Assembly (NCBI GenBank): GCA_001799795.1
Contig: MGUD01000028.1
Span: forward strand, 1-42,771
Length of the DNA stretch: 42,771 nucleotides
Direction of reading: 5' to 3'
Source of the DNA: Elusimicrobia bacterium GWC2_61_19
GTDB lineage: Bacteria; Elusimicrobiota; Elusimicrobia; Elusimicrobiales; UBA9959
The notes under the pieces were generated by a model, which did no database searches, had not been told where the DNA came from, and saw nothing but the letters and a program-made list of their open reading frames with translations. Made by a program: the position numbers and the translations under genes. Of this stretch, positions 25,164 to 29,285 are shown in pieces (within the stretch, counting starts at the first letter, position 1; every line of letters begins with the position of its first letter).

Positions 25164-25190
25164 CCCGCTCTTTCAGGCGGGATTTCTTTT
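25164..25190 (+). terminator. Possible intrinsic terminator
   Basis: Stem CCCGC (25164-25168) and GCGGG (25077-equivalent arm at 25177-25181), with an 8-base loop, is followed by ATTTCTTTT. It is the first terminator-like hairpin after the rightward gene cluster that ends at 24506. Confidence 0.5.
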
Positions 25191-25312
25191 GCTAATGATA
25201 AAATACTATAAACGATATCGGATATTAATAAATAACGTATATAAAACGAGCACTATTTAAAAAACATTGATTGCGTTTATCGTTGTGACGGCATATTGCG
25301 AGGGGATTGATA

Positions 25313-25340
25313 AGTTAACATAATATATCTTATCGTAAGT
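25313..25340 (-). other. dif: dif-like XerC/XerD recombination site
   Basis: Read on the - strand, the 28 bases are ACTTACGATAA (XerC arm), GATATA (centre) and TTATGTTAACT (XerD arm). The XerD arm matches E. coli dif (TTATGTTAAAT) at 10 of 11 positions, and the full site matches the B. subtilis dif as I remember it at about 23 of 28. The surrounding 250 bases are AT-rich, whereas the genome is GC-rich. Genes on both sides point toward this site. XerC/XerD would act here to resolve chromosome dimers at division. Neither xer gene is in the window. It could also be a dif-derived junction of an integrated element. Confidence 0.82.
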
Positions 25341-25512
25341 CCTTGGGCCAAGACGGGGCTGTTGCCTGGTTCTCGGTGTTTCCGGGTGTTTTCTTGGGTT
25401 TCTGGCGGGTTTGCTGATTTGCTGCGGGTTCTTCTACCGGTTCTTTGTCTGGTTTGGTTTTCCCCGGTGTTGCGGGTTCTGTCGGGTTGCCTGCCTGCCC
25501 ATGGACGGGCAT
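25330..25512 (-). CDS. Possible small hydrophilic protein ending inside the dif-like site
   Basis: A 60-residue frame rich in Pro, Lys, Glu, Gln and Thr starts 17 bases after the stop codon of the winged-helix gene and could be coupled to it. A weak purine tract (GAAGCAGG) precedes the ATG. The stop codon falls in the XerC arm of the dif-like site. There is no recognisable domain, and a disordered tail-like protein is all that can be said. It may be spurious, because the - strand here is A/C-rich. Confidence 0.3.
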   Translation of the reverse strand: MPVHGQAGNPTEPATPGKTKPDKEPVEEPAANQQTRQKPKKTPGNTENQATAPSWPKDLR

Positions 25513-25529
25513 TATGTCGGCCTGCTTCT

Positions 25530-26009
25530 CTAGACCAGTTTCCTGGCTTCCAGCCAGACTCTTTCCAGGCCTTTGTCGGTTATCTGGTAGGCCCGGCTTC
25601 TCTTGGTTCCGGAGGCCTTTACCAGCCCTTCTCTGTGGGCTTTTGCGAGCAATCTGTCGATGCGTTCTGGGACATAGCCGGAGGCCTTTATGGCTTTTGA
25701 CAGGGTTATGGCGCTAATGGAATTGGCCATGTTCAGCTGCCTTTCGGCCGCCAATATTAGCAGGGCGGCGTCTCCTGCCTTGAGGTTCTGGTGCTTGTTT
25801 TTGAGGATCAGCAGCCCGTTTTTAGCTTCTGTCAGGGCGTTCCAGGCCGGCGCCTGCGGCTGCTCTTCGTAGTGTTTTTGCCTGTTCGTCCCCGGTTCTC
25901 CCGATAACCGGCCCAAGAAGCCTTCCTTTTCCGTCTGTATGAATTCTACCGGGCCCTCCGCCTCGAATTCGGCCCCTGACGGGTGTTTGATCCTGAGCTT
26001 GTAATTCAT
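25530..26009 (-). CDS. Winged-helix DNA-binding protein, unknown family, next to dif
   Basis: The 159-residue protein has a short N-terminal beta-rich domain (MNYKLRIKHPSGAEFEAEG...) and a charged linker. A C-terminal winged helix spans about residues 80-155: ALLILAAERQL, then ISAITLSKAIKASG, a recognition-like helix ERIDRLLAKAHREG, and the wing ASGTKRSRAYQITDKGLERV. It is soluble and small. It has a good promoter whose -35 box lies in the last of four phased repeats, which suggests autoregulation. Its position about 190 bases from dif recalls B. subtilis rtp, which encodes a winged-helix replication terminator with sites at its own promoter. That parallel is inference and no RTP similarity is visible. 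A transcriptional repressor, or a replication protein of an integrated element, are alternatives. Confidence 0.72.
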   Translation of the reverse strand: MNYKLRIKHPSGAEFEAEGPVEFIQTEKEGFLGRLSGEPGTNRQKHYEEQPQAPAWNALTEAKNGLLILKNKHQNLKAGDAALLILAAERQLNMANSISAITLSKAIKASGYVPERIDRLLAKAHREGLVKASGTKRSRAYQITDKGLERVWLEARKLV

Positions 26010-26042
26010 GATTATCGCCTCTTGCCTATGTCTTATGTCATT

Positions 26043-26071
26043 ATTTTAGCGTATAGTTATGTATATGTCAA
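26043..26071 (-). promoter_or_regulatory. Promoter of the winged-helix gene
   Basis: On the - strand, TTGACA (26071-26066), a 17-base spacer and TAAAAT (26048-26043) form a near-consensus sigma-70 promoter. The leader is about 27 bases and contains GAGG before the ATG. The -35 box is the last unit of the phased repeats. Confidence 0.8.
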
Positions 26072-26102
26072 TATATGGCAAGCATATGTCAAGTATATGT
26101 CA
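26063..26102 (-). repeat. Four phased 11-base direct repeats (TTGACATATAC type)
   Basis: Core ATATG(T/G)CA (+ strand) occurs at 26063, 26073, 26084 and 26095, so it repeats every 10-11 bases on one face of the helix. Weaker copies lie downstream of the -10 box (TTATGTCA at 26033). On the - strand each unit reads TTGACATAT or TTGCCATAT. The array overlaps the -35 box of the winged-helix gene and looks like an operator or iteron set. The same core recurs at 29248-29285. Confidence 0.75.
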
Positions 26103-26107
26103 ACAAG

Positions 26108-26127
26108 TGTTGATAACCTGTGGATAA
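26108..26127 (-). promoter_or_regulatory. Two adjacent DnaA boxes
   Basis: On the - strand a perfect box TTATCCACA (26127-26119) is followed after GG by TTATCAACA (26116-26108), one mismatch from consensus. They are 11 bases apart and continue the 10-11-base phasing of the neighbouring repeats. DnaA may regulate the gene, or the boxes may be left from a plasmid-type origin. Confidence 0.65.
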
Positions 26128-26289: not shown

Positions 26290-27600
26290 TTAGAAGCGGG
26301 CCGAGATGGCGCCGTAGATGAGTTTTGCCTGGGTGGCGTCGGGGTAGAGGCTCAGCGGGGTGAAAACGGCGTAGACGGCGTTTAAATGCAGGTTCTCGCC
26401 AAAGGCGTAGGAGGCCTTGACGTCGTACTCGCTGGCTATCTGCAGCGAGCCGCCGTTGGCGTTCCTGGAGGCGCGGAACTTGTACAGGTCCGCCGATATG
26501 ATCAGTTTCTTGTAGGGCAGGTCGGCGCCGATATTGATGACGTTCAGGCCGGAGACGCCGTTGGGCAGGCCGTTGGCGGTGGCGGAGGTCTTTATCATGT
26601 CGTAAAGTGTTGCCCCGGCTATGGCGCCGTAGCCGCGCCTTTCCATGCCGCTGAATTTGCCGCCGAAGGCCGGGAAGAAAGCTTTGTCGGTGCCGGACTC
26701 GGCGCCGGGGTTGCCGGAGGACCGGCCGTAGGCCAGGCGCACCTTGGACGGTCCGAAGAAGGTGATGTCCTGGTTCCAGGCGCCCTTAAGCATGAAAGCG
26801 TGGGCCTCGTACTTGCCGCCGCCCCCCCCCGCGAGCTTGGCCGTGCCGCGCTGTATCGCGGCCTCGCCGTCGAAGGAAAGCTGCTTCTGGCTGAGGAAAT
26901 AGCGCAGGCCGGTGAACTTCTTGGTCTTGGACGCGGCGTTGAAAAGAATATCCTGGCTGGGGCCGTCGTCGACTTCCCAGAAATGATAGGCCTGCCAGAG
27001 GCCTTCACTGGCGGGGTAGTAGGCCGTGCCGCCATAAACCTTCAGGTAGCGGTCGGTCATGAACGGGCGGAAAAAGAACAGATCGGTCTTGATGTTGCGG
27101 TAGAGCTTGTCTATCTCGAGGCGGCCGCCTGGCAGGCCCAGGTCGTCGCTGCCGAGGGTTATGCCCTGGCCGAGGGCGTAGTCCTGCCGGCCGAAAGTGG
27201 CGGTGATGTTGGGGCGCAGGAACTTGTAGATCTTGACGTAGGCGCCGCGGATGAAAGGCGTGCCGTCGGCGTTGGGCAGGCGGTTGATGGCGTCGGCGAA
27301 CTGCGGACTGGTGATGGTGTTGGAGGACGCGCCCGGGCCGATGCTCTGCAGCACTACGCCCACGTCCATGGAGGAATCGGGCGTCTTTTCCAGCTTTATG
27401 CCCTTTATGATGAAGCCGATGGCGGCGTTCTCGGAGAAGAGCGGCTGGGAGGCCTGGCGGTCGCCGTAGACCAGGTGCTGGTAATTGGCGGCCTTTATCT
27501 CCACGTCGGAAGACAGGTCCAGCTTGGTGGCGTGCGCGCCGTTAGCCAGGGCGAGCAGGGCCGCTATGGCGGCGGAGATTCGTAGGGCCGGACGTTTCAT
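26290..27600 (-). CDS. Outer-membrane beta-barrel porin-like protein
   Basis: The 436-residue protein has a signal peptide (MKRPALRISAAIAALLALANGAHA, cleavage near residue 24). A long series of alternating amphipathic strands rich in Tyr, Gly, Asp and Phe follows, ending in the C-terminal Phe typical of outer-membrane barrels (YGAISARF). A conserved-looking segment is GRQDYALGQGITLGSDDLG, similar in style to alginate-export-type porins. It should form a pore for small solutes; the substrate is unknown. A perfect extended -10 lies just before its ATG. The neighbouring upstream gene encodes a second, unrelated-looking porin. Confidence 0.82.
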   Translation of the reverse strand: MKRPALRISAAIAALLALANGAHATKLDLSSDVEIKAANYQHLVYGDRQASQPLFSENAAIGFIIKGIKLEKTPDSSMDVGVVLQSIGPGASSNTITSPQFADAINRLPNADGTPFIRGAYVKIYKFLRPNITATFGRQDYALGQGITLGSDDLGLPGGRLEIDKLYRNIKTDLFFFRPFMTDRYLKVYGGTAYYPASEGLWQAYHFWEVDDGPSQDILFNAASKTKKFTGLRYFLSQKQLSFDGEAAIQRGTAKLAGGGGGKYEAHAFMLKGAWNQDITFFGPSKVRLAYGRSSGNPGAESGTDKAFFPAFGGKFSGMERRGYGAIAGATLYDMIKTSATANGLPNGVSGLNVINIGADLPYKKLIISADLYKFRASRNANGGSLQIASEYDVKASYAFGENLHLNAVYAVFTPLSLYPDATQAKLIYGAISARF

Positions 27601-27701: not shown

Positions 27702-28952
27702 TTAGAACTTCACGTTCATGTACAGGCTGGCCAGTTTGACGGAGTCATCCTTGCCGCCAATCTTGAGCTCGTCGGGCATGAACATCGCCAGACCGGCTTT
27801 GAGGGCCACGTTCTGGGAGTGGGTCCAGGTGGCCACGAGGTTCGCCTCGGTGCCGGCATGGTCCACGGTGCCGACTTTCTCGGTGTAGGAGAAGTCGTAA
27901 TACTTAACGCACAGGTTGAGTTTGTCCAGCTTTTCCGGGGTCCAGTTGGCGCCCACGTTCCAGGTGGTCAGGTTGCTGAGGCTGCTGGAGCCGCCGATAG
28001 CGGTCACGCCCATGCCGCCCAGTATGAGGCCGGGGCGATAGTTGGCGTTGATGTCCTGGAAGGACTTGTCGGAGGAGTCGGCGGTGTTCTTGTCGCCGGT
28101 GCCCATGGCGTACTCGCCCATGAAGTTCCATTTGCCCAGGAAATCATAGCCGTAAGCGGCGTTGAATTTCATGGCGGAGCCCTTGTAGTCCTTGTTGGTG
28201 GTGGAGGTCAGGTTGCGGTCCATGCCCATGTTCATGGCATATTCCGCGCCGTATTCCACGCCCACGTACTTGCCGTTGACTTTTACGCCGATGACCTGAA
28301 GGTCGTCGACCTTGGCGGCGGTGTTGTAGTCTTTGGCTTCGTAATAGTAAGCGGCGGGCTTCACTATTTCGGAGTAGTCGTAGGAGGCGGTCACACCGTA
28401 AACGTCGATGTCTTTATTGATGACACCGTTGGCTTCCGTCTGCTTGGAGGCGAGGGCGGTCACGCCCAGCTTGTCCTTGGACCACTTGGAGGTCCAGCCG
28501 TCCAGGGCCACGGCAAAGGCGTTCATGCCGCGGGTATACCAGTTGGCGGGGCCGTAATAGATAACGATGTCGCCATCGTTGCCGTAATACTGGCGGCCGA
28601 TCTGGTGGTCCAGGCCGATTACACCTTTCAGGGTCAGGTAAGCCTGCTCGAACTGGAACTGGTCGATGAGGGTATTGACCTTCTCCGGGGCGTCGCCCAT
28701 CTGGCGGTTGCACTTAACCGCGCTGACGGTGGCGGCCACGTCTTCATTGAGGTCAAAACCTGCGTTGATCATAACGCGGTGGTTGACTTCGCCGAATTTG
28801 TCCGAGGCGTCCGTATCAAAGTCCAGCGCGTTGTTTAATACAAAGCCCTGGCCTTCAATGCTGCCGTTGTACTTGAAGTTCTTGAGCAGTTCGGCGTTGG
28901 CAATGTTGCCAACAAGCGCGACCAGCGCAAGCATTCCTATTACTTTTTTCAT
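27702..28952 (-). CDS. Outer-membrane porin (alginate-export-like beta-barrel)
   Basis: The 416-residue protein has a clear signal peptide (MKKVIGMLALVALVGNIANA, positions 28952-28893). About 16 predicted amphipathic strands follow, and it ends in LYMNVKF with the terminal Phe of outer-membrane barrels. GRQYYGNDGDIVIYYGPANW resembles the region seen in alginate-export-type porins. The composition is lower in GC-type residues and richer in Lys, Asn, Asp and Tyr than its neighbours, as is usual for abundant porins. An AGGAGGAG Shine-Dalgarno, a consensus-like promoter at 29194-29222 and a long hairpin-rich leader suggest high and regulated expression. The substrate is unknown. Confidence 0.85.
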   Translation of the reverse strand: MKKVIGMLALVALVGNIANAELLKNFKYNGSIEGQGFVLNNALDFDTDASDKFGEVNHRVMINAGFDLNEDVAATVSAVKCNRQMGDAPEKVNTLIDQFQFEQAYLTLKGVIGLDHQIGRQYYGNDGDIVIYYGPANWYTRGMNAFAVALDGWTSKWSKDKLGVTALASKQTEANGVINKDIDVYGVTASYDYSEIVKPAAYYYEAKDYNTAAKVDDLQVIGVKVNGKYVGVEYGAEYAMNMGMDRNLTSTTNKDYKGSAMKFNAAYGYDFLGKWNFMGEYAMGTGDKNTADSSDKSFQDINANYRPGLILGGMGVTAIGGSSSLSNLTTWNVGANWTPEKLDKLNLCVKYYDFSYTEKVGTVDHAGTEANLVATWTHSQNVALKAGLAMFMPDELKIGGKDDSVKLASLYMNVKF

Positions 28953-29247: not shown

Positions 29248-29285
29248 ATATGTCAGGATATGGCAAAAAGCCCGGCCATATGTCA
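29248..29285 (-). repeat. Second set of phased ATATGTCA repeats
   Basis: Copies ATATGTCA (29248), ATATGGCA (29258) and ATATGTCA (29278) are spaced by 10 and 20 bases, the same core and helical phasing as at 26063-26102. They lie 26 bases upstream of the porin -35 box, a typical activator position. A shared DNA-binding protein is likely, with the winged-helix product as candidate. Confidence 0.65.

Follow-up and report, generated by a model that had tools for sequence, protein, structure and literature searches.

A winged-helix protein gene conserved beside dif in Elusimicrobia

Introduction

Joined duplicate chromosomes are separated at dif, and to our knowledge the proteins known to act at the terminus are few and narrowly distributed. 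The gene for RTP of Bacillus subtilis is located near dif, and the winged-helix proteins TubR and AspA, which act in partition, bind to arrays of DNA sites. According to sections of a review, both RTP and Tus autoregulate, and perhaps most species are without a fork trap (PMC10331603). A passage of another article describes a common fold and dimer arrangement for PadR proteins and RTP (PMC3506622). At the plasmid site cer, about 180 bp of accessory DNA is used, as stated in part of a further source (PMC5357621), and a portion of the study by Kono et al. (2011) reports a predicted dif in one Elusimicrobia genome (PMC3025954).

The window considered here is a stretch of 42,771 bp, the entire contig of a 66%-complete Elusimicrobiota genome assembly. 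A first-pass annotation, made from the letters alone, proposed that a small winged-helix protein encoded next to dif may bind phased repeats in its own promoter and act at the terminus, possibly in the manner of RTP. We compared the locus with its relatives throughout the phylum and with the systems named above.

Results

An orphan winged-helix protein encoded beside dif

The dif site and the gene next to it are located as follows:

25313 to 25340, minus strand: dif, 28 bp, ACTTACGATAAGATATATTATGTTAACT, with the XerC arm facing the gene (single copy in the assembly; adjoins the gene in relatives)
25530 to 26009, minus strand: gene for an orphan winged-helix protein of 159 aa (open reading frame; no Pfam or NCBIfam family; structural models)

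The stop codon of the gene lies 189 bp from dif, confirming the separation of about 190 bases given in the first-pass annotation. The 24-base core of dif, with at most 3 mismatches allowed, has one match in the 66%-complete assembly. Two Xer-type matches (292 and 276 bits, under the curated XerD cut-off) were found in the window's genome, which therefore holds both a 28-bp site and Xer recombinases; Xer-type matches were present in all nine genomes searched, with the curated cut-off passed by one. Matches to the FtsK gamma domain, found in 5 of 14 genomes and missing from all four of the window's genus, stay below the cut-off and are too weak to carry any argument.

The window protein matched no family at E ≤ 1 in a profile search of Pfam and NCBIfam, and a search of solved structures by sequence returned none at E ≤ 0.1. 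Among 32 relatives, weak matches were obtained to PadR (4 members, best E 0.0017, the window protein not among them), to YjhX_toxin (one member, E 0.0015), to an Sso10a-type family (5 members, best E 0.033) and to a phage transcriptional-regulator PHROG (19 members, best E 4.9e-4); a search with 60 members had the same outcome. The replication-terminator family was absent among the Pfam hits at E ≤ 1 for both the 32 and the 60 members, and MatP was not named among the Pfam and NCBIfam hits of the window protein and its relatives. The window protein thus belongs to an orphan family with no known family matched. A metabolic-repressor identity, which the first-pass annotation had named as an objection to a terminus role, found no clear match, the best being the weak PadR and phage-regulator hits of some members.

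AlphaFold models of the family (mean pLDDT 80.8 and 84.4) agree with the winged-helix assignment made from the sequence of the 159-residue protein. They consist of an N-terminal beta-beta-alpha unit, in which SGAEFEAEGP is invariant across the alignment of 32 members, a variable linker and a C-terminal winged helix, followed in both models by a C-terminal helix (residues 145–158). Foldseek returned generic MarR/PadR-like folds, with a best E of 1.1e-3 and a TM of about 0.4 over the query; TubR and the pNOB8 centromere-binding protein rank lower among the best 50 hits, none of which is a chain described as RTP. Since PadR proteins and RTP share a fold, a winged helix neither proves nor excludes an RTP-like role.

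The gene and its linkage to dif across the class

The gene was matched in 57 of 61 genomes, the window's own included, and a survey of 340 genomes of the phylum found it in 174. Among the 191 good genomes it is present in 117, and among 100 genera in 41; all 174 gene-positive genomes fall inside the window's class. One apparent absence (G008) concerns a contig that stops 38 bp past dif, on the side expected for the gene. A mobile-element origin was considered and set aside, as no relative of the protein was found at E ≤ 0.01 in 72,556 plasmid and 50,697 phage records.

For the linkage count, dif was accepted at a score of at least 22/28, downstream of the gene and on its strand. Such a site was found in 30 of the 32 loci of the window's group (its genus and near relatives), at a distance of 46–278 bp, in 13 of 16 loci of the sister family (159–2191 bp), in 28 of 31 loci of other families of the class (29–646 bp) and in two of the four loci from other genera of the window's family (L063–L066). 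Altogether, dif lies just downstream in the same orientation in 73 of 83 loci, and apart from the exceptions listed below the homologues are not scattered far from dif, which the first-pass annotation had raised as a possible refutation. Because the loci were chosen by the gene and the genomes are related, these counts are not independent events. Seven more sister-family genomes agree by coordinates (G050, G052, G053, G055, G056, G059 and G060), and of three loci kept outside the 83-locus count (L173, L185 and L186) one has dif.

Four of the ten misses still have dif at a looser score or a longer distance, namely a 21/28 site 1 kb off (L070), a 20/28 site at 0.9 kb (L163) and same-strand sites 5.9 and 12 kb off in G049 and in the complete relative G045, respectively. 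Two loci have a flank of just 0.55 and 0.96 kb (L159 and L162), and in L064 and L066 there is no dif in the stretches examined. In L020 (G023), near a contig end, unrelated sequence takes over after the XerC arm and spacer, the break falling within dif; in L012 (G021), the gene is directly followed by other DNA, which has an inverted repeat of about 21 bp and looks like an inserted element. In two genomes of the window's family (G034 and G036), the gene is present and dif is not recognisable. One counted site (L178 in G184, 22/28) likewise comprises the XerC half and spacer only, with unrelated sequence thereafter; both L020 and L178 could reflect the integration of an element at dif or a switch in the assembly. 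Separately, an identical dif-like 28-mer with 3 mismatches to the pattern occurs in six sister-family genomes (for example, G046:C1:203887-203914), and in G046 and G054 it lies about 18–20 kb from dnaA.

Position relative to the terminus

In the complete relative (G045; 1,643,562 bp), dnaA is at 586, the gene at 904.5 kb and dif at 917 kb. Of the stretches sampled for GC skew, all ten as far as 758 kb are positive and all twelve from 820 kb onward are negative; the gene and dif (904–917 kb) lie roughly 85–160 kb past the skew change. Gene orientation converges on dif in G019, with 85 kb on the plus and 33 kb on the minus strand to the left of the site and 16 and 83 kb, respectively, to its right. 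In G203, a one-contig genome from another family of the class, about 1.09 Mb of a total of 3.80 Mb separate the gene from dnaA, the two are not opposite each other, and the skew is uninformative; the terminus position therefore rests mainly on the one complete relative.

The GC skew of the window itself turns from negative to positive at dif, a pattern that at first suggested an origin. On either side of dif in G019, which belongs to the window's genus, GC skew at third positions goes with the coding strand, so the window skew says nothing about an origin. AT skew at third positions shifts at dif with a sign that is unreadable, and shows no clear shift at dnaA in two genomes.

We also considered sequences enriched near dif. 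TGMCATAT has 12 sites in 260 kb near dif versus 5 in 900 kb elsewhere and ranks 15th of 3358 permuted patterns; a matS-like, terminus-wide set is not claimed, as 3 of the 12 are the porin-side site described below and 5 lie inside genes. The most dif-enriched of 26,610 octamers, TCTGCATT, was rejected because in 16 of 24 rows it marks an end of an inverted-repeat element. These elements, of about 2–3.5 kb with shared inverted ends, occur at 594–614 kb of G019:C15 and 46–93 kb of G028:C51, on the same side of dif in the stretches sampled of both genomes, and explain most of the TCTGCATT enrichment. Similarly discarded was TGATATCA, of which 6 of 12 copies near dif are one local repeat in one genome. 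Six copies of CGCGCCTGATATCAGGACGA lie within 20 kb at 540–560 kb of G019:C15.

Phased repeats and DnaA boxes in the promoter

The promoter of the gene, read along its strand, contains the following elements:

26119 to 26127, minus strand: DnaA box TTATCCACA (sequence reading and scan)
26108 to 26116, minus strand: DnaA box TTATCAACA, 2 bp from the TTATCCACA box (sequence reading and scan)
26094 to 26103, minus strand: phased repeat 1, TTGACATATA (pattern scan)
26083 to 26092, minus strand: phased repeat 2, TTGACATATG (pattern scan)
26072 to 26081, minus strand: phased repeat 3, TTGCCATATA (pattern scan)
26062 to 26071, minus strand: phased repeat 4, TTGACATATA, holding the -35 box at 26066 to 26071 (pattern scan; conserved)
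26043 to 26048, minus strand: -10 box TAAAAT, 17 bp from TTGACA (direct reading; promoters of relatives)

Repeat 4 supplies the TTGACA -35 box, followed after a 17-bp spacer by TAAAAT, and the four phased repeats overlapping the -35 box, with two DnaA boxes behind them, are found just where the first-pass annotation had placed them. The repeat TTGMCATATR has 4 matches versus 0.05 expected, and none of 100 shuffles gave at least 4; in the comparison of relatives, the phased repeats have the form TGNCATAT. TGNCATA occurs upstream of the gene in 32 of 32 loci of the window's group, 16 of 16 of the sister family and 29 of 31 of other families, against an expectation of 0.12–0.19 per sequence. In 22 whole genomes, the exact tandem pattern has 13 matches, distributed over 9 genomes and all upstream of the gene. 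A looser repeat scan covered 2.0 Mb of sampled sequence from four genomes and had 24 matches, of which the gene's own promoter accounts for 9, against 11 in one shuffle of each. The protein may bind the phased repeats.

DnaA-type boxes are found upstream of the gene in 30 of 32 loci of the window's group, where shuffled sequence gives 0.02 each, and are sparser elsewhere (6 of 16 loci of the sister family and 16 of 31 of other families). The strict pair of boxes has 25 matches in 17 of 26 genomes. Twenty-two of these belong to 14 genomes of the window's genus, with 8 at the gene and 14 elsewhere, one per genome, and in the three genomes with dnaA located (G000, G019 and G028) the non-gene pair abuts dnaA. 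The remaining 3 matches are in the sister family, none at the gene; five genomes of other families have no strict pair, and at the gene the pair is absent in all 12 genomes of other families searched. As a side observation, a further protein with a DnaA-like AAA+ domain in a longer frame (465–1625 aa) was seen in 17 of 17 genomes searched for dnaA (for example, G000:C16:94813-95454, with similar ones in relatives), and in G214 no full dnaA was matched.

Porin neighbours and a second repeat array

Upstream of the gene, two porin-like genes and a second array of the same repeat were recognised:

26290 to 27600, minus strand: porin-like gene (Alginate_exp), adjoining the winged-helix gene (Pfam match)
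27702 to 28952, minus strand: second porin-like gene (Alginate_exp; Pfam match)
29248 to 29285, minus strand: second repeat array, preceding the porin gene at 27702 to 28952 (inspection; relatives)

All 13 loci of the window's family retain the adjacent porin, as do all 14 of other orders, where several genes further out are kept as well in 5–10 of the 14 loci. In the sister family, no porin neighbours were found at any of 12 loci, with about 6 kb compared for 11 of them and 19 kb for one. Given the porin synteny in other orders, the dif linkage could partly be inherited gene order, and the conserved linkage is perhaps in part only synteny. Of 21 loci of the window's group, 19 have a repeat site at the matching place; in 17 of these a homologue of the second porin was found, and the site precedes it in 17 of 17, which ties the array to the porin more firmly and slightly raises the odds of a local regulator. 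Outside the window's group, a porin-side array was found in L157 only, from another order, with flanks that are short for some loci. Concerning the question, posed by the first-pass annotation, of whether the repeats stand at many unrelated promoters, the answer is no, although in the window's family they do mark one further conserved promoter, which belongs to a porin gene 3 kb distant.

A conserved motif beyond dif

On the far side of dif, comparison of relatives brought out two further features:

25230 to 25258: imperfect inverted repeat between dif and the motif (alignment)
25189 to 25214, minus strand: fixed-distance motif, consensus CATTTATAGTTTTTTATTATTAGCAG, starting 98 bp past the XerD arm (alignment and matrix)

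A stretch of about 150 bp past the XerD arm is conserved in an alignment of 29 loci, and in several relatives the inverted repeat is almost perfect, both arms showing changes. The motif was followed in a dataset of the 74 loci that remained after those with dif below 22/28 or a flank under 200 bp were left out, using a 26-bp matrix trained on 29 instances from the window's group and taking the best hit in 400 bp on both strands. The best hit fell at the same offset in 23 of 28 loci of other families, 7 of 14 of the sister family and both loci of other genera, a total of 32 of 44 loci outside training. In the control, gene-side flanks gave a top score of -2.6 in other families, lower than all 23 hits, and of 11.1 in the sister family, higher than 3 of the 7 hits. 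Within 580 kb sampled from G019, the dif-side motif scores 47.5 and the next best site 16.6; 180 kb of G028 without dif has one hit, at 19.1, about the weakest training score.

Being at a fixed distance and shared across orders, the motif makes dif look like a composite site. By sequence comparison, the region appears to provide conserved accessory DNA at a fixed spacing from the core, as in sites of the cer and psi type. An RNA reading of the region beyond dif was rejected, there being no Rfam match above the gathering score and no consensus fold. Our literature search, which covered titles and abstract openings from part of the journals, showed no description of the gene or the motif.

Discussion

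The architecture of the locus and its conservation are well supported by the comparison of relatives. As the gene stands beside dif across many families and has DnaA boxes at its promoter, it may represent a new participant in the closing stage of the replication cycle. The interpretation that we tentatively place ahead of the others, while giving it less than an even chance, is that of a module at dif, in which an autoregulated, DnaA-controlled winged-helix protein acts at dif or marks it; binding of the protein to the repeats, control by DnaA and action at dif are what we infer from the layout. Under such a mechanism, the protein would bind the repeats overlapping its own -35 box and repress itself, and DnaA would bind the box pair and couple expression to the replication cycle. 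Produced and bound at a single place near dif, the protein would then form a nucleoprotein complex marking or assisting the dif region, and could serve as an accessory factor of XerCD/FtsK dimer resolution or as a terminus anchor. The broader proposal of a class-wide composite dif, comprising the XerCD core, the accessory motif and a neighbouring winged-helix gene that is switched by DnaA and by itself and controls or marks dif, is rather doubtful; a protein on the motif beyond dif need not be the winged-helix protein.

The strongest rival, and a serious possibility, is that the protein is an ordinary local regulator of itself and, in the window's family, of the neighbouring porin, standing near dif because gene order at the terminus is conserved. 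This explanation is in keeping with the repeat site that precedes the second porin wherever that porin was found in the window's group (17 of 17), with the porin synteny in other orders and with a fold of the MarR/PadR type; it has more difficulty with the sister family, where none of 12 loci has porins and yet dif lies within 2.2 kb in 13 of 16. The porin-side array, moreover, is limited outside the window's group to L157, some flanks being short, and neither the DnaA boxes nor the motif beyond dif would be explained. Another possibility is a timing device, in which a DnaA-controlled terminus gene doubles in dosage at the end of replication and feeds back on initiation or division; the strict DnaA-box pair shared with the dnaA site in the genus and the location in the terminus half of the complete relative are consistent with it. 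We nevertheless regard this as unlikely, given that linkage to dif over tens to hundreds of bp is far tighter than dosage requires and that the motif beyond dif is again left unexplained.

An RTP-like replication fork trap, although suggested by a winged helix, autoregulatory-looking sites and a dif neighbourhood as in B. subtilis, is in our estimation a shade less probable still. PadR folds, hit weakly here, closely resemble RTP in the portion of PMC3506622 cited above, and one of 14 loci (L041 in G019) has a TGGCATA repeat pair 0.9 kb past dif in the opposite orientation. The other 13, however, have no repeat pair within 3 kb past dif, the exact tandem arrays of 22 genomes stand solely at the gene's own promoter, and neither a sequence match to the RTP family nor, among the best 50 structural hits, a chain described as RTP was obtained. 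Fork arrest thus has little support beyond analogy. The terminus-protein reading of the first-pass annotation accordingly divides in two: comparison strengthened the part that concerns dif linkage, autoregulation-type sites and DnaA boxes, whereas RTP-like fork arrest, with neither a family match nor opposed site arrays, was not supported. Iteron-like repeats, DnaA boxes, a winged-helix protein and weak structural likeness to TubR and the pNOB8 centromere-binding protein would also suit an origin-like or plasmid-derived element, with an initiator-like protein, captured at dif. This we consider very improbable, in view of the plasmid and phage records without a relative, the skew of the complete relative, which places the origin near dnaA, and the spread of the gene over many families of the class.

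Should the module at dif be real, a single promoter would connect initiation with the final step of the chromosome cycle, in a terminus system unlike Tus, RTP or MatP. A gene kept beside dif with DnaA boxes would offer a concrete handle on how initiation is coupled to the end of replication and to dimer resolution, and a conserved extra motif at a chromosomal dif would challenge the view that 28 bp suffice. E. minutum, which we take to be a cultured relative, makes the reading testable.

Comparison with known systems

MatP with matS and Tus with ter are, like the protein proposed here, terminus-specific DNA-binding systems; at the present locus there is no match to their families, and no dispersed terminus-specific sites were established. 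PadR and MarR regulators, TubR and AspA of pNOB8 have the winged-helix fold in common with the window protein and differ from it in that the structural likeness is distant (the Foldseek E and TM values given above), while PadR itself was matched in only 4 of 32 members and not by the window protein. In B. subtilis, RTP is likewise a small winged-helix protein with a gene near dif and sites in its own promoter; here, an N-terminal beta-beta-alpha unit and DnaA boxes at the promoter are added, with no sequence-family match and no opposed Ter-like arrays found. ColE1 cer and pSC101 psi, which work with ArgR, ArcA and PepA, are plasmid sites, whereas the present site is a chromosomal dif with a predicted accessory motif on the XerD side, about 98 bp away. 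As in those sites, an Xer core is joined to conserved DNA at a fixed spacing that could hold accessory proteins.
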